Below, piece after piece: positions 5,887 to 11,470 of a stretch of DNA of 12,161 nucleotides (its first letter is position 1; each line of letters starts with the position of its first letter). The DNA is from Candidatus Acetothermia bacterium (GTDB taxonomy: Bacteria; Bipolaricaulota; Bipolaricaulia; Bipolaricaulales; Bipolaricaulaceae), in NCBI GenBank assembly GCA_011057175.1, contig DSBZ01000010.1, positions 1-12,161 on the forward strand. Direction: 5' to 3'. The notes beneath the pieces are model-generated. The model searched no databases, was not told where the DNA came from, and saw only the letters and a program-made list of their open reading frames with translations. The position numbers and the translations under genes were made by a program.

Positions 5887-6879
5887 CTAGGGCAGAGGAG
5901 CGAGGCCTGGCTCGCGGAGCCACGCCGCGATCCACCTCTCCCAAGCCATCTGCCGCGCCGTGTCGCGGCCGTGGTCCGTCTCGCCGTCGTAGAGCGCCTG
6001 AACCTCGGAGTGGCCGGCGCTGACCCGCCGGAAGGCCTCCCCAGCCCGAGTGCGGAGCTCCTGCTCCGCATCGGCTGCCGCCCAACCGTCCGCCGAGAGC
6101 CCTCGTAGTTCACGGTCGAGGATCCGCCGGTACACCTCCGCGAGGTCGAAGTGCCCCTGCTCGTGGGCAAGGGCGGCCGCCGTCCTCCGCTCCGGGAGGG
6201 CCCACGACCGGTCCCGCTCCATCGCGGCGGTGACGAGGAGAGAAGCGATCCCTGCCTGCCACATCCCGGTCCCGGGGTCACGGGCGGTGACCACGGTCAA
6301 GTCGAAGGCGAGCACGGTCGCGATCCCCGCCCCCGCCGTGGGGTCGCGGTCCGCAGGAGGGGGACCCCAGAAGTCGTCCCAGGTGATCGGGCGGTGGGCG
6401 CTCCACGGAAGCCGCGCTTCGGTTCCTGGTGGCGCCCCTGGTGCCGGCGTCGCCGGCGGGCACGACGGAAGCGGGGCGCTGACCTCCACAGCCAACTTCA
6501 GGTCAAGCGACGGGATGCCATCAGTCCAGGCGCGGTACACGATCTCCACGCGCCGCCCCGCGCTCCCGGGGGGAGGGGAGAACGCGTAGACGGTCGTGAC
6601 CCTTCCCCAGCCAGAGGCAGGTGACGCCGCGGGCCAGCCCGGGGGAGCAGAGACGGGCGCCACGTGTACCGTGCACGCCGGATCAGACGACACGGAGAGC
6701 GAAACCGAGGCCGACGAGCCCTCGGAGACCTGGCACAGGAGGAGCGTTCCCCCACCTAGGGAGCACGAGCGGGCCGCCTCGACTTTCCAGGACCAGCGGA
6801 GGGTGACCGCGCCCTGGCCCCAACCGAGGGCGGCCGCTGCCCAGACTGCCCCCAGGACGAACCCAAGGCAACGCCTCAT
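5887..6879 (-). CDS. Secreted DUF922-type putative zinc-dependent protease
   Basis: A 330-aa protein. Residues 1-23 form a signal peptide (M-R-R-C-L-G-F then a hydrophobic Ala-rich helix ending G-W-G-Q-G-A). Residues about 25-135 are a Ser/Val-rich beta domain with paired cysteines, followed by a Pro/Ala linker (138-155). The C-terminal domain begins R-P-I-T-W-D-D-F (163-170) and contains H-E-Q-G-H-F-D-L (239-246), an HExxH zinc site, and Y-D-G-E-T-D-H-G (297-304), both typical of DUF922. The family is described as predicted secreted Zn proteases; activity is inferred. The ATG at 6879 gives a complete signal peptide, with CGAGGG about 10 nt upstream. It lies 28 nt after the GYD gene on the same strand, so the two are probably co-transcribed. 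No terminator is visible before the convergent lipoprotein gene. Confidence 0.85.
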   Translation of the reverse strand: MRRCLGFVLGAVWAAAALGWGQGAVTLRWSWKVEAARSCSLGGGTLLLCQVSEGSSASVSLSVSSDPACTVHVAPVSAPPGWPAASPASGWGRVTTVYAFSPPPGSAGRRVEIVYRAWTDGIPSLDLKLAVEVSAPLPSCPPATPAPGAPPGTEARLPWSAHRPITWDDFWGPPPADRDPTAGAGIATVLAFDLTVVTARDPGTGMWQAGIASLLVTAAMERDRSWALPERRTAAALAHEQGHFDLAEVYRRILDRELRGLSADGWAAADAEQELRTRAGEAFRRVSAGHSEVQALYDGETDHGRDTARQMAWERWIAAWLREPGLAPLP

Positions 6880-6907: not shown

Positions 6908-7198
6908 TTACCTCTGTTGGATCCGGGCCACGAAGTCGTCCACGGGGAGGGCGGACAGAGTCTCGATCTTCACCGTTCCGCGCGCTCCCAGCTCCACGGC
7001 GACGCGGGCCACCGCCATCGCCCCCGTGGCCTCGATGATCGTCACGAAGTCGTAACGCCCGAGCGTGGCGTACTGGTGGATGACCTTCGCCCCCAGGGCC
7101 TCGATCTCCCGGTTGACTTCCAGAATCCGCTCCGGCTTCTCCTTGATCGTCTTGGCACCCTCGTCGGTGAGCCGACTCAGAAGCACATAGGTCTGCAT
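6908..7198 (-). CDS. GYD-domain protein
   Basis: A 96-aa cytoplasmic protein beginning M-Q-T-Y-V-L-L-S-R-L-T-D-E-G and containing L-G-R-Y-D-F-V-T-I-I-E near residues 46-56, then a run like A-M-A-V-A-R-V-A-V-E-L-G-A-R-G-T-V. These are the features of the small GYD family, a ferredoxin-like alpha/beta fold in which the G-Y-D motif is here G-R-Y-D. The function of the family is unknown. I chose the ATG at 7198 because GGAGGG sits at ideal spacing just upstream; a longer frame would add 25 residues without family similarity. It is the first gene of a probable two-gene unit with the DUF922 protein and has a plausible promoter upstream. Confidence 0.88.
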   Translation of the reverse strand: MQTYVLLSRLTDEGAKTIKEKPERILEVNREIEALGAKVIHQYATLGRYDFVTIIEATGAMAVARVAVELGARGTVKIETLSALPVDDFVARIQQR

Positions 7199-7224
7199 GG
7201 CAGCCCTCCTTCGGTGGTGGTCCC

Positions 7225-7254
7225 ATCCTACCCCACGGTTCCCCACGACGGCAA
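7225..7254 (-). promoter_or_regulatory. Candidate promoter of the GYD-DUF922 unit
   Basis: Read on the minus strand, TTGCCG (7249-7254) and TAGGAT (7225-7230) are separated by 18 nt, a sigma-70-like arrangement 26 nt upstream of the GYD start codon. The boxes match four of six consensus positions each or better. No other promoter-like pair was seen nearby. Confidence 0.45.
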
Positions 7255-7290
7255 CGGACGCGCTGCTTGCCACTCCCGGAGCGCGCTACC

Positions 7291-8388: not shown

Positions 8389-8518
8389 GCACCATGGGGT
8401 CGCTTAACAGGCGGGGCACGATAAGGTCGTCACTGCTTTTCCCGTCGATCAAACCTGTCGCCAGGCTTCTTAGTGAGGGCCACCTCAACCACTTCGTCAC
8501 CCCCACCAGCCGCTTCAT
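8381..8518 (-). other. Small open frame of 45 codons, doubtful gene or gene remnant
   Basis: An ATG frame of 45 aa, preceded by AGGAG with a long (11-nt) spacing, overlaps the start of the hydrolase remnant by 8 nt. Its end, L-L-S-D-P-M-V-H-E, faintly recalls the D-P-L-V-H segment of monoacylglycerol-lipase-type hydrolases, which would make it another hydrolase scrap. That likeness is weak, and the frame may be chance. Between 8519 and 8540 I see nothing further on this strand. Confidence 0.2.
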
Positions 8519-8540
8519 CTGGTAACGGTCTCCTGGCGCA

Positions 8541-8571
8541 CCAGGGTCGGGCCTCTTGACAGGGCCCCTGG
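8541..8571. promoter_or_regulatory. Operator-like dyad centred on the trpXYZ -35 box
   Basis: CCAGGG (8541-8546) and CCCTGG (8566-8571) are perfect inverted arms, with further inner GGGC/GCCC complementarity (8549-8552 with 8564-8567). The dyad is centred at about 8556, the first base of the TTGACA box. A further CCTGG at 8532-8536 also pairs with CCAGG (8541-8545). A repressor bound here would block RNA polymerase. No regulator is identified. Confidence 0.3.
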
Positions 8572-8584
8572 ACCGTCGTATCTC
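8556..8584 (+). promoter_or_regulatory. Sigma-70-type promoter of the leader peptide-trpXYZ unit
   Basis: The -35 box TTGACA (8556-8561) is a perfect consensus, the spacer is exactly 17 nt, and the -10 box is TATCTC (8579-8584). Transcription should start near 8590-8592, only a few bases before the leader-peptide ATG at 8595. The position upstream of an attenuator terminator supports its use. Confidence 0.75.
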
Positions 8585-8594
8585 TTAGCTTGCG

Positions 8595-8666
8595 ATGGAA
8601 GAGCTACGTGCAGGCGGGGGGGTGATCGCCGGGAAGCCAACCTTCTACGGGTATTGGTTCGCATAG
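8595..8666 (+). CDS. Aromatic-codon-rich leader peptide of trpXYZ attenuator
   Basis: A 23-codon ORF (ATG to TAG) that no gene finder would call. Its end reads K-P-T-F-Y-G-Y-W-F-A: two Phe, two Tyr and one Trp among the last seven codons. This is the signature of a leader peptide whose ribosome stalls when aromatic aminoacyl-tRNAs are short, as in trp and phe operon attenuation. Position agrees: it starts a few bases after the predicted transcription start and is followed by an alternative pairing element (from 8667) and an intrinsic terminator (8710-8736) just before trpX. There is no room for a Shine-Dalgarno site, so translation would be essentially leaderless. The peptide itself probably has no function. 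What is seen is the codon cluster and layout; regulation is inferred. Confidence 0.72.
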   Translation: MEELRAGGGVIAGKPTFYGYWFA

Positions 8667-8723
8667 GGGCGCGACCTCCTCCGCTCGTGGGGAGAGGGGC
8701 GCCCGGAGACCGCAAGCAGGAGG
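8667..8723 (+). promoter_or_regulatory. Candidate antiterminator and competing hairpin of the attenuator
   Basis: CCTCCT (8675-8680) plus GCT (8683-8685) can pair with AGC (8715-8717) plus AGGAGG (8718-8723), nine pairs with a two-base bulge. This structure excludes the terminator stem. CCTCCT lies 8 nt past the leader stop, so a ribosome finishing the peptide would cover it, while one stalled at the aromatic codons would leave it free. A competing local hairpin pairs GGGCGC (8667-8672) with GCGCCC (8699-8704), extended by CCTC...TCC with GGAGAGG. Which fold wins has not been computed. Confidence 0.45.
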
Positions 8724-8736
8724 CTTGCGGGTTTTT
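8710..8736 (+). terminator. Intrinsic terminator (attenuator) upstream of trpX
   Basis: CCGCAAGC (8710-8717) and GCTTGCGG (8723-8730) form a perfect 8-bp stem with a 5-nt AGGAG loop, followed by G and five T. It lies only 20 nt before the trpX start codon and downstream of the promoter and leader ORF. It therefore acts within the trpXYZ leader and is not the end of an upstream gene: the preceding gene is on the other strand. Confidence 0.88.
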
Positions 8737-8755
8737 CTTTGTCGAGGAGGGATAG

Positions 8756-9721
8756 ATGAAGCTTGCAGTTGTAGCGTTGCTCATGGTATGCGTGGTCAGC
8801 GCCGTTGGTCAGCCGATCGTGATCGGGATCACCCAGATCGTGGACCATCCGGCACTCAACGCCGTCCGGGACGGGGTCATCGCCGTGCTGAGCGAGGCCG
8901 GGTACGTGGAGGGGGAGAACGTACGCTACATCCTGGCCAACGCTCAAGGAGATTTCTCGGTGGCCATCGCGATCGCCCAGAACTTCCAGGACCAACGGGT
9001 GGGGTTGGTGATCGCAATCGCCACCCCCACCTCACAGGCTGCCGTCCAGGTCTTCCAAGGGACGGCAGTGCCCGTGGTGTTCGCGGCGGTCACAGATCCG
9101 GTGGGAGCAGGGCTCACCCTCTACCCCAACGTAACGGGGGCGTCCGACCTCATCGATGTGGCGGGCGACCTCGCCCTCCTCCAAACACTCATACCGGGGC
9201 TGCGCCGGGTGGGGATCGTCTACAACCCTGGAGAGGTCAACTCGGCCATCCTCACCAAGATGGCCCAGGAGGTCGCGGCAGGGATGGGGTTGACGATCGT
9301 GACCGCCCCCGCTGAGCACAGCGCGGCGGTACTCCCCGCTGCCCAGTCGTTGGTGGGGCGGGTGGATGCGATCTACGCGACCACCGACAATACCGTGGCC
9401 ACGGCACTGGAGGCAGTGGTCCAGGTGGCAACGGCAGCTCGGATCCCGTTCCTCATGGCGGATCCGACCAGCCTCGAACGAGGGGCACTTGTGTGTACTG
9501 GGTTCGACTACTGGGATCACGGCCGGCTCGCCGGGGAGATCGTGGTTCGGCTCCTGGAGGGGGCAGTGCCCGAGGAGATCCCGGTCGCCTACCAGAAGGG
9601 GACCCAGGTGTGGCTGAACCTCGACATCGCCCAGGCGATGGGGTTCGCGTTTCCCCAGGCAGTGCTGGACCAAGCGACGGGGATCTTCGTCGGCGGCCGG
9701 CGGTTCGTTGCCGGGGAGTGA
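8756..9721 (+). CDS. trpX: ABC transporter substrate-binding protein, TrpX-like (aromatic amino acid)
   Basis: A 321-aa exported binding protein. Residues 1-18 are a signal peptide (M-K-L then a hydrophobic helix ending V-S-A-V-G) without a lipobox Cys, so it is probably a free periplasmic protein. The mature part starts P-I-V-I-G-I-T-Q-I-V-D-H-P-A-L and has the two Rossmann-like lobes of the ABC_sub_bind (TrpX) family: D-G-V-I-A-V-L-S-E-A-G-Y, V-F-A-A-V-T-D-P-V-G-A-G-L, V-G-I-V-Y-N-P-G-E-V-N-S, and Y-A-T-T-D-N-T-V. GAGGAGG (8744-8750) is a strong ribosome site 5 nt before the ATG. It is the first gene of a three-gene importer, with a 10-nt gap to trpY. The upstream aromatic leader peptide argues for Trp, Tyr or Phe as substrate; the family alone would not settle this. 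Confidence 0.9.
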   Translation: MKLAVVALLMVCVVSAVGQPIVIGITQIVDHPALNAVRDGVIAVLSEAGYVEGENVRYILANAQGDFSVAIAIAQNFQDQRVGLVIAIATPTSQAAVQVFQGTAVPVVFAAVTDPVGAGLTLYPNVTGASDLIDVAGDLALLQTLIPGLRRVGIVYNPGEVNSAILTKMAQEVAAGMGLTIVTAPAEHSAAVLPAAQSLVGRVDAIYATTDNTVATALEAVVQVATAARIPFLMADPTSLERGALVCTGFDYWDHGRLAGEIVVRLLEGAVPEEIPVAYQKGTQVWLNLDIAQAMGFAFPQAVLDQATGIFVGGRRFVAGE

Positions 9722-9731
9722 GTGGGCCGGC

Positions 9732-10616
9732 ATGAGCATCGTCATGGCGGCGGTCGAGCAGGGGCTCATCTATGGCCTCATGGCCCTCGGTGTGTATATC
9801 TCGTTCCGGATCCTGTCGTTCCCCGACCTGTCTGTGGACGGGACGTTCCCCCTCGGGGCGGCGGTGGGGGCGACGCTGATCGTGGCGGGATGGAACCCAT
9901 ACGCAGCGCTCGGGGTCGCATTCGCTGCCGGGGCCGTGGGCGGGGCGTTCACCGGGGTCCTCGCCACCAAGTTCCGCATCCAAGGGTTGCTGGCGGGGGT
10001 GCTGACGATGATCATGCTCTACTCCCTGAACTTGCGCATCATGGGGAGGCCCAATCTTCCCTTGCTCGGCCGCCCGTCCGTGTTCCGCCTCGCCGCACAG
10101 TGGGGGGGGATCCCCATGGCGTGGGCCAACTTCGCTGTGGCGGCGTCGCTAGCGCTGGGGGCGATCCTCCTCCTTCATCTTCTGTTTCGAACCGAGATCG
10201 GCCTCGCCCTGCGCGCCACGGGGGACAACCCGGGGATGGTGAGGGCCTACGGCACGAGCCCGGAGGGGATGGTCATCTTGGGGCTCGCGCTCGCCAACGG
10301 GCTCGTGGCCCTGTCCGGCGCCCTGGCGGCCCAGCACGGGGGGTTCGCCGATGTCGGGCTCGGGGTGGGGACGATCGTCGCCGGGCTGGCATCGGTGATC
10401 GTTGGGGAGATCCTCCTCCGCCCGCGCTCGATCCTGTGGGCGTTGGGGGCGGTGCTGGCCGGGTCGTGCCTATATCGGGGAGCGATCCTCGTCGCGTTGC
10501 GCTATGGGTCCGCGGTGGGGTTCACCGCCTCCGATCTGCGGCTCCTCACCGCCCTCGTCGTGCTCGGGGCCCTCGTTGCCCCGGCGTGGCGGCTGCGCCA
10601 GGAGGGGGCCGGATGA
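9732..10616 (+). CDS. trpY: ABC transporter permease, TrpY-like
   Basis: A 294-aa inner-membrane protein with about eight hydrophobic segments, of the branched-chain-amino-acid-like permease family (BPD_transp_2). Family marks are S-F-P-D-L-S-V-D-G-T-F-P-L-G-A-A-V near the N-terminus, G-V-L-T-M-I-M-L-Y-S-L-N-L-R-I-M-G-R-P-N, and a cytoplasmic loop with L-R-A-T-G-D-N-P-G-M that contacts the ATPase. It forms the channel of the importer, probably as a dimer. I chose the ATG at 9732, which starts M-S-I-V-M-A-A-V-E-Q-G-L-I-Y-G; a TTG in frame earlier would overlap trpX by 14 nt. The ribosome site is weak, so coupling to trpX translation is likely. The stop overlaps the trpZ start (ATGA). Confidence 0.92.
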   Translation: MSIVMAAVEQGLIYGLMALGVYISFRILSFPDLSVDGTFPLGAAVGATLIVAGWNPYAALGVAFAAGAVGGAFTGVLATKFRIQGLLAGVLTMIMLYSLNLRIMGRPNLPLLGRPSVFRLAAQWGGIPMAWANFAVAASLALGAILLLHLLFRTEIGLALRATGDNPGMVRAYGTSPEGMVILGLALANGLVALSGALAAQHGGFADVGLGVGTIVAGLASVIVGEILLRPRSILWALGAVLAGSCLYRGAILVALRYGSAVGFTASDLRLLTALVVLGALVAPAWRLRQEGAG

Positions 10617-11470
10617 TCCTCAAGCTGGCAGGGGTGCGAAAGTCGTACTCGGTCGGAGCCCAGCTCGTTTCCGCCTTGGCGGGGGTGGACTTCGCCCTCG
10701 CCCAAGGGGAGTTCGTGACGGTCATCGGCTCCAACGGGGCCGGGAAGACCACCCTCCTCAACGTGATCGCAGGGGACACCCGCCCGGACAGGGGGAAGGT
10801 CTACCTGCTCGGCCGGGATGTAACGGGTTGCCCGACCCACCGTCGGGCCTGCTGGATTGGGCGTGTGTTCCAGGATCCGCGGCAGGGGGCCGCTCCCCAC
10901 CTCACCGTTGCCGAAAACCTCGCCCTCGCCTCGCGCAAGGGGAGGAGGGGGCTCGGCTTCCCGTTGACCCGTCGCCGCCGCGCCGCGCTTCGGGAGGCAC
11001 TGGCTGGGCTTGGCATGGGACTGGAGGAGAGGCTCTCCGAGCAGGTCGCCTGCCTATCCGGTGGGGAACGGCAGGCGCTCGCCGTGCTCATGGCCACCCT
11101 GGCGCGGCCACGGCTCCTCCTCCTCGACGAACACACCGCGGCCCTCGATCCGGCCAATGCCGAGCGCGTGCTCGCGATCACGGAGGACCTCGTGCGCGCG
11201 GGGGGCTTGGCCACGCTCATGGTCACCCACCGCATGGACCAAGCATTGGTCCTCGGGGATCGGCTGGTGATGCTCCATCAAGGCCGGATCCTCCTCGATC
11301 TCCCTTCCGCGGAGAAACGGGCGTTGGCCGTGGAGGACCTGGTCCGGCTGTTCCGGCAGGAGGGGTGCGCCGAAGACGAGCTCCTCCTCTCCTCTGCCGA
11401 CAACGCCCCGCCCCGCGCGCCCCTTACGCCGGGCGCCGCAGCCGTACCTCGATCTCCCAAGGGTCCCTGA
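10613..11470 (+). CDS. trpZ: ABC transporter ATP-binding protein, TrpZ-like
   Basis: A 285-aa cytoplasmic ATPase that powers the importer. Walker A is G-S-N-G-A-G-K-T-T (39-47), the Q-loop is V-F-Q-D-P (85-89), the signature is L-S-G-G-E-R-Q (148-154), Walker B is L-L-L-L-D-E-H-T-A-A-L-D-P (168-180), and the H-loop is T-H-R-M (205-208). The D-E-H-T-A-A-L-D-P wording is typical of TrpZ-type ATPases. Translation is coupled to trpY by a 4-nt ATGA overlap, with GGAGGGGG just upstream. The conserved domain ends near residue 260; the last 25 or so residues are Pro/Ala-rich and overlap an antisense gene remnant, so they look like read-through past a lost stop. No terminator follows. Confidence 0.93.
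   Translation: MILKLAGVRKSYSVGAQLVSALAGVDFALAQGEFVTVIGSNGAGKTTLLNVIAGDTRPDRGKVYLLGRDVTGCPTHRRACWIGRVFQDPRQGAAPHLTVAENLALASRKGRRGLGFPLTRRRRAALREALAGLGMGLEERLSEQVACLSGGERQALAVLMATLARPRLLLLDEHTAALDPANAERVLAITEDLVRAGGLATLMVTHRMDQALVLGDRLVMLHQGRILLDLPSAEKRALAVEDLVRLFRQEGCAEDELLLSSADNAPPRAPLTPGAAAVPRSPKGP

Follow-up and report, generated by a model that had tools for sequence, protein, structure and literature searches.

The window analyzed here is a 12,161-nucleotide stretch from Candidatus Acetothermia bacterium that carries three consecutive genes for an ABC importer, preceded by a promoter-like sequence, a short leader ORF, a hairpin (hairpin 1), and an intrinsic terminator (Table 1). An initial annotation of this DNA had described a consensus -35 hexamer with a 17-nt spacer, a 23-codon ORF ending in aromatic codons and TAG, and an 8-bp terminator with a T tract followed by the start of a trpX-like gene, and all of these elements are present in the sequence, with the qualification that the -10 hexamer is poor, matching the consensus at three of six positions. 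That annotation made no mention of hairpin 1 or of the Shine-Dalgarno-like element inside the ORF. A promoter scan of the window reported none in 8400-8800, while a terminator scan returned two overlapping terminator-like sites against 0.3 expected. When all six frames of the window were read, the leader was the sole ORF ending with at least four aromatic codons among its last eight. Genes for a DUF922 protein (5887-6879, minus strand) and a GYD-domain protein (6908-7273, minus strand) also lie near the importer, and no link between these and the leader was seen.

Table 1. Features of the leader region and importer genes, with positions counted from the first letter of the window.
Feature	Position	Strand	Details
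Promoter-like sequence	8556..8584	+	TTGACA 8556-8561, 17 nt, TATCTC 8579-8584
Leader peptide ORF, MEELRAGGGVIAGKPTFYGYWFA	8595..8666	+	23 codons and TAG
Shine-Dalgarno-like element GGGGGGGTGATC, leader codons 8-11	8616..8627	+	GG-GGTG invariant in alignments A1 and A2
Control codons TTC TAC GGG TAT TGG TTC (F Y G Y W F)	8643..8660	+	
Hairpin 1, base directly 3' of the stop codon	8667..8704	+	covariation, 26 sequences
Intrinsic terminator (8-bp stem, 5-nt loop, U-rich tail)	8710..8740	+	CCGCAAGC-AGGAG-GCTTGCGG at 8710-8730; tail GTTTTTCTTT at 8731-8740
Substrate-binding protein (SBP), TrpX-like (PF04392)	8756..9721	+	Pfam 7.1e-71; 239.3 bits vs gathering 25.9
Permease, TrpY-like (PF02653)	9708..10616	+	
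ATPase, TrpZ-like (PF00005)	10613..11470	+	

The best relatives of the SBP in the PDB are 3lkv, 6hni, and 3lft. Of the corresponding proteins, CD0873 binds Tyr (6HNI), VC_1101 binds Phe (3LKV), and SP1069 binds Trp (3LFT), and two residue positions have been named as deciding specificity in aromatic SBPs (PMC6816091). In our own mapping, Asp236 of the window's SBP takes the place of CD0873 Glu-263, which is Ala in both VC_1101 and SP1069, and Tyr252 takes a place that holds Tyr in CD0873 and VC_1101 and a Trp-contacting Gln in SP1069. Both residues are invariant in 16 aligned homologues, and judged by this pocket, Tyr or Phe is no less likely a ligand than Trp. The initial annotation had also predicted an importer for Trp, Tyr, and Phe alike; this breadth is at most inferred, given that the SBP scores 207 bits against the TrpX equivalog NF041285, under the cut-off of 390, and that Asp236 and Tyr252 are nearer to the Tyr- and Phe-binders.

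Information on the likely physiology of the host comes from chorismate synthase (aroC, TIGR00033), the sole enzyme of the pathway for which we searched. It had no match in the window's own genome (1.38 Mb, 94% complete) nor in 33 of the 39 family relatives; among the 40 family genomes, which are drafts of 58-99% completeness, it was matched in 6 (5 over the cut-off), and it was matched in 14/14 control genomes. The absence of chorismate synthase suggests that most members of the family probably import all three aromatic amino acids, which would make a sensor for all three sensible.

Conservation of the leader among relatives

The SBP was found in 59 of the 197 genomes searched, the window's own genome (G000) included. 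Within Candidatus Bipolaricaulota, the lineage to which the window belongs, upstream regions were read at 42 loci of one class: 25 from the window's own family (f1), and 15 and 2 from the further groups f2 and f5, respectively. One locus (L048) that proved to be the same as another (L007), and low-identity or fragmentary SBP matches in G013, G020, G072, G082, and G090, were excluded from these counts. A short leader ORF with a Y/W/F cluster lies 5' of the SBP gene at 25/25 f1, 15/15 f2, and 2/2 f5 loci. With the addition of a copy that precedes a trpB-like gene in G020 (see below), 26 f1 leaders were available for comparison. Their last eight codons include four to six aromatic codons, with all three aromatics represented in 26/26, and the residues are encoded with synonymous variation (TTC 39, TTT 7, TAC 29, TAT 20, TGG 37). 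The f1 leaders typically end in YWFA, the f2 cluster is WYWF or close to it and is followed by more codons (often GFS..AR), and the two f5 leaders contain YSYYYWF and YAYSYWY; F, W, and Y all occur within the last 16 codons in 17/17 f2 and f5 leaders. In a 24-sequence alignment (A1), gaps within the ORF appeared by eye to be multiples of three. The uniqueness of the aromatic cluster in the window, together with its conservation at 42/42 class loci, places it beyond chance.

The stretch between the stop codon and the terminator is likewise conserved. When this stretch was folded, hairpin 1 was predicted in all 26 sequences, at -19 to -28 kcal/mol, and its pairs are exchanged at many positions, including position 4 (GC 13, AT 2, CG 1), position 9 (CG 18, TA 8), and position 10 (CG 14, TA 5, GC 4). 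The terminator stem and U tract align in the 24 A1 sequences, with the four outer pairs invariant and the others changed on both sides; two cells of the alignment at the inner pairs are broken or gapped, in shorter or varied stems. The base of hairpin 1 lies 5-6 nt past the last aromatic codon in 25/25 f1 loci, and at the 17 f2 and f5 loci the first predicted hairpin pair lies 1-7 nt past it. The stop codon follows the last aromatic codon 3 nt on in f1, and 9, 12, or 24 nt on in f2 and f5. Given that the spacing between hairpin and aromatic codons stays short while the distance to the stop varies, hairpin 1 is keyed to the aromatic codons and not to the stop. In three f2 leaders (L025, L027, and L042), the sequence GACTGCGG within hairpin 1 duplicates the 5' arm of the terminator and could be a decoy partner for the 3' arm.

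Promoter-like sequences recur at the 5' side of the leader. At 22 of the 25 family loci, the window included, TTGACA or TTGACT is followed by a -10-like hexamer with three to four of six matches (best of three spacings), and in these 22 the hexamer ends 5-11 nt 5' of an in-frame leader start codon; at the remaining three, the -35 is missing. This placement makes it probable that translation of the leader begins at the 5' end of the transcript or very close to it. Taken together, the comparative evidence indicates that the leader-peptide sensor is real. An alignment of relatives had been proposed as a check, and in it the aromatic codons, stop, and terminator are kept, with covariation in the hairpin that separates the stop from the terminator. 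The view of the initial annotation that the mixed codons form a general sensor of Phe, Tyr, and Trp is well supported by the presence of all three residues in every f1, f2, and f5 leader, and it fits the missing chorismate synthase.

To place the leader in a broader context, 80 named importer loci were compared, 21 from the lineage and 59 from other phyla. The leader is present at all 21 lineage loci, which largely repeat genomes already counted and are not independent of them, and its motif was found at 0/59 loci of other phyla, where at most 450 nt upstream were read and two loci (L082 and L100) had almost none. A loose aromatic filter was passed by 12 of these 59, none with the shared motif, and aromatic-rich ORFs 5' of L105 and L117 were dropped as they look, by eye, like another frame of a different gene. 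Five importer relatives from outside the class (L039, L043, L044, L045, and L047) lack such a leader, although at L043, L045, and L047 there are short ORFs with aromatic codons that are of a different kind.

A covariance model built from 21 leaders was used to search 120 genomes and produced 26 strong matches, namely 25 importer leaders (21 of which are in the model itself) and one leader before a TrpB-like gene; an exact DNA pattern search was too strict, with matches in 7/120 genomes and the window's own genome missed. The TrpB-like gene is in G020, where a leader encoding MEENPHRGEVIAGAKSFAWYWFN precedes it, directly upstream of the importer leader of the same genome, so that the locus (L172, G020:C209) has the tandem order leader, trpB-like gene, second leader, importer SBP gene. 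At other TrpB-like loci, the leader was found in 0/18, two of which (L250 and L252) begin inside the gene, with the upstream sequence unseen. In G028, the SBP gene is followed on its own strand, about 1.8 kb further downstream, by a TrpB-like gene. The weak covariance matches, among those listed, include true leaders before other importers; 21 were inspected and only those with ORF, hairpin, and terminator were used. The weak matches also contain gene starts with two Shine-Dalgarno sequences, presumably matched because the end of the covariance model fits T-rich signal-peptide codons.

Among importers of the Liv type, detected with a LivJ-like query, 7 of the 8 f1 loci with upstream sequence have a leader that mixes branched-chain, Met, and aromatic codons, a count in which the locus of the query itself is included (L204, first picked up as a covariance match); L209 has no leader, and two further loci (L210 and L230) had too little upstream sequence. 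Examples of f1 Liv leader ends, directly before the stop, are NLHATGYWFLMV, STSIFYVLFLTW, and STLVIFVLM, and in a loose screen of f2 and f5 Liv loci, several f2 leaders ended in SSHLVYWITLFAPARA or GSLWFAYYIWL. By this comparison, the codon content of the leader follows the downstream gene, and such changes could therefore offer a codon-based hint at the substrates of orphan transporters.

Shine-Dalgarno-like element within the leader

The f1 leaders share a second element, which resembles a Shine-Dalgarno sequence and lies inside the ORF. Its GG-GGTG is invariant in 24 aligned f1 leaders and lies 43-52 nt before the stop codon at 25 loci. Across the 26 f1 leaders, the codons that carry it are always GAG or GGG and then GTG, and this fixed codon choice argues for selection at the RNA level. 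The element also occurs in all seven f1 Liv leaders seen, and was found in 0/15 f2 importer leaders and in a shortened form, GAGGTGATC, in the two f5 leaders. At 13 of the 15 f2 importer loci (all but L035 and L037), a GGAGG lies within approximately 45 nt past the terminator T tract, with no evident start codon and tens to more than 100 nt ahead of the gene. A GGAGG after the T tract was likewise observed at the f2 Liv loci L213, L214, L216, L219, and L225.

The element is not confined to leaders. A search for AAGGAGGTGAT at 30-60 nt before a second GGAGG and an ATG yielded 39 matches in 23 of the 40 family genomes, compared to 1 when the pattern was reversed. With a trpX leader set aside and a pair of overlapping matches at a single site counted once, 37 remain. 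The exact pattern was found neither in the window's own genome nor in the 11 other genomes of its genus; a similar sequence, AAGGGGGTGATC, is present in the window's own genome at L201. Of the 37 non-leader sites, 0 have an ATG and 4 have a start codon of any kind at a distance of 4-11 nt, a small difference from the 2 and 7 of a shifted control. These orphan copies (e.g., at L189, L200, and L203) often have a G/A-rich stretch 5-13 nt further on, and several of the genes behind them look, by eye, like transporter SBPs. In 22 f1 leaders, the element lies 31-40 nt past the -10-like hexamer, where it is inside the ORF. Internal initiation after the element was considered and rejected, as by eye the leaders share no start codon behind it. 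The element has the look of a 5'-region feature of the family that the leader ORF overlaps incidentally.

One function that might be assigned to it within the attenuator is pausing, in which the internal Shine-Dalgarno sequence would pair with 16S rRNA and hold the ribosome before the control codons, timing it with the polymerase. The invariance of GG-GGTG, its distance to the stop codon, and its occurrence in the f1 Liv leaders speak for such a role, but we regard it as distinctly unlikely, given that AAGGAGGTGAT also occurs in non-leader 5' regions and that every f2 importer leader lacks the element. STAB-SD-like elements match the Shine-Dalgarno consensus near the 5' end of a transcript, have no start codon at the proper spacing, and protect RNA from 5' decay through binding of the 30S subunit. 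A general 5'-region role of this kind, or as a ribosome standby site, is at least as likely as pausing.

Folding of the leader and possible modes of action

To look for an antiterminator, the 25 f1 leaders were folded at equilibrium, without pseudoknots, in three states: free of ribosomes, with a ribosome stalled at the W codon, and with a ribosome at the stop. The probability of the terminator helix exceeded 0.9 in 23/25, 22/25, and 21/25 leaders, respectively. Single leaders deviate: with the stalled ribosome, L014 drops to 0.42, and with the ribosome at the stop, the window's own leader (L001) drops to 0.44 and L009 to 0.67 (0.04 without the tail). These share no common direction, and the exception in the window runs opposite to the model of the initial annotation. 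Folding of truncated transcripts revealed no partner for the terminator 5' arm at a conserved place. Upstream pairing of the U tail showed little dependence on state, with means of 0.26 free, 0.31 stalled, and 0.26 at the stop, and compared with shuffled sequences the fold of the entire leader is only marginally better (z -1.31), which we counted against an attenuator reading. Pairing between GGAGGT of the internal Shine-Dalgarno-like element and ACCTCC of hairpin 1 was also considered as a conserved switch and rejected; it fits one family branch only and fails where hairpin 1 reads ACTCTC/GAGAGT though the Shine-Dalgarno-like element persists (A1, by eye).

Searches for known regulatory RNAs were negative as well, with no Rfam family matched in the window or at 20 class loci. 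The T-box (RF00230) had no match in the window, in 8500-8800, or at 20 class loci. No Rfam leader family, such as Trp_leader or Phe_leader, reached its gathering score, and none appeared in 8500-8800 at E values up to 5 or at the 20 class loci. With the terminator favored in most leaders in every state, a trp-type switch is unsupported by equilibrium folding. The attenuation by stalling at mixed aromatic codons that the initial annotation put forward is thus upheld in part: the codons, stop, and terminator that it calls for are conserved, but the mutually exclusive antiterminator was not found.

Comparison has demonstrated the leader ORF with its aromatic codons, hairpin 1 at a short distance from these codons, and the terminator, and we consider it very likely that a leader-peptide attenuator tied to the supply of aromatic amino acids controls the downstream ABC importer. 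Transcription would start almost at the leader start codon, and a ribosome would translate the 23 codons. If Phe-, Tyr-, or Trp-tRNA were poorly charged, this ribosome would stall at the F/Y/W codons, shortly before it reaches hairpin 1, with the hairpin folded, and if all three tRNAs were charged, it would proceed and open the hairpin; transcription would end at 8731-8740 or continue into the importer genes. From standard ribosome footprints, a stall early in the cluster leaves hairpin 1 folded, and a ribosome that moves onward opens it. We infer both the stalling and the read-through upon starvation.

Several explanations depart from this scheme, and of these the possibility to be taken most seriously, if still an unlikely one, is a classical trp-type attenuator whose antiterminator escaped folding because it involves a pseudoknot, pairing of the U tail, or kinetic folding. 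All other parts are classical, the U tail does pair partly upstream (stalled mean as above; 0.69 in the window's own leader), and in the window GCTTGCG (8588-8594) could by eye pair with the terminator 5' arm. However, this last pairing was rejected as a switch as it is, by eye, not conserved; neither GCTTGCG nor any other partner of the terminator arm lies at a conserved place, and mean tail pairing is nearly equal across states. With the usual RNA switch not found, part of the mechanism may be new. We tentatively propose, as a design that is rather unlikely to hold, that no antiterminator is used and that the position of the ribosome on mixed codons, either aromatic or aromatic and branched-chain, gates a separate hairpin that does not overlap the terminator, with the folded hairpin and stalled ribosome acting directly on RNA polymerase so that it passes the terminator, for example because the ribosome is brought into contact with the polymerase or because the response of the polymerase is changed. 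If true, this would be a phylum-specific design that serves several amino acid importers, each with a codon set of its own, and the codons would report the cargo of the importer.

The leader might also act through its peptide and not its codons. TnaC is a nascent-chain arrest peptide, and by analogy a nascent chain ending in YWF(A) could sense within the ribosome tunnel whether a free aromatic amino acid is present, with the stalled ribosome changing termination. The last four residues are often YWFA and the cluster is C-terminal in f1, but we consider arrest of this type improbable. A check for fixed residues found that the F/W/Y class is conserved while residue order and distance to the stop vary (FGWYFYFV, YFGWFYFA, LVYYWWFA, and CAYYYWFA), the f2 leaders have three to eight more codons after the cluster, and the Liv-type leaders contain L, I, V, and M as well. 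The varying order and the content of the Liv leaders point to codon content rather than a fixed arrest motif. It is more improbable still that the ORF is incidental and that hairpin and terminator constitute either a constitutive attenuator or the terminator of an upstream gene. While the terminator is favored in most modelled states, the aromatic codons are kept at 42/42 loci despite changing DNA, as is their short spacing to hairpin 1, and the promoter-like sequence just 5' of the ORF in 22/25 implies that the terminator belongs to the leader transcript.

Relation to known leader systems

Leaders that respond to several amino acids are known from ilvGMEDA (Ile/Val/Leu) and thrABC (Thr/Ile). 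Like the trp, phe, and ilv attenuators, the Bipolaricaulota leader places a short ORF with relevant codons, a hairpin, and an intrinsic terminator before structural genes. Unlike them, it has a mixed Phe/Tyr/Trp codon set, an importer as its target, hosts that are likely auxotrophs, and a start codon that probably lies at the 5' end or close to it; moreover, hairpin 1 and the terminator share no strand, and no antiterminator was found. Leaders with a conserved peptide and a terminator have been described as incomplete attenuators before actinobacterial ilvB (PMC1262725). The leader reported here resembles these in both parts, and differs in that the actinobacterial leaders concern branched-chain biosynthesis in another phylum, with no codon-keyed hairpin described in the available text of that report. 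In Staphylococcus aureus ilvD, an antiterminator has been predicted that would sequester the U tail and leave the terminator stem intact (PMC5794164).

According to a 2010 survey, transcriptional attenuation was known for very few ABC transporters (PMC2965389), and our literature search returned no paper naming Bipolaricaulota or Acetothermia together with a leader peptide. The attenuator proposed here would extend leader-peptide control to a candidate phylum and to ABC importers of likely aromatic auxotrophs, and would very likely let the cell import more aromatic amino acids when these are short. It also raises the question of how a stalled ribosome could suppress an intrinsic terminator without refolding, a question made testable by 25 leaders with no conserved antiterminator and a hairpin placed by the aromatic codons.

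The importer family itself is known under a different form of control. In Streptococcus suis, trpXYZ is subject to T-box control (PMC9382623), and in our scan of 20 other-phylum loci a T-box lies 5' of the importer at three (L083, L084, and L101, all Atribacterota; L083 is from Caldatribacterium). These T-boxes imply that control of the importer differs among phyla, by T-box in some and by leader peptide in others. Both arrangements would serve the same importer family and respond to the same class of signal, tRNA charging, but a T-box reads one tRNA through one specifier, whereas the Bipolaricaulota leader, with no T-box in the window or at the 20 class loci scanned, would read its mixed set of aromatic codons.
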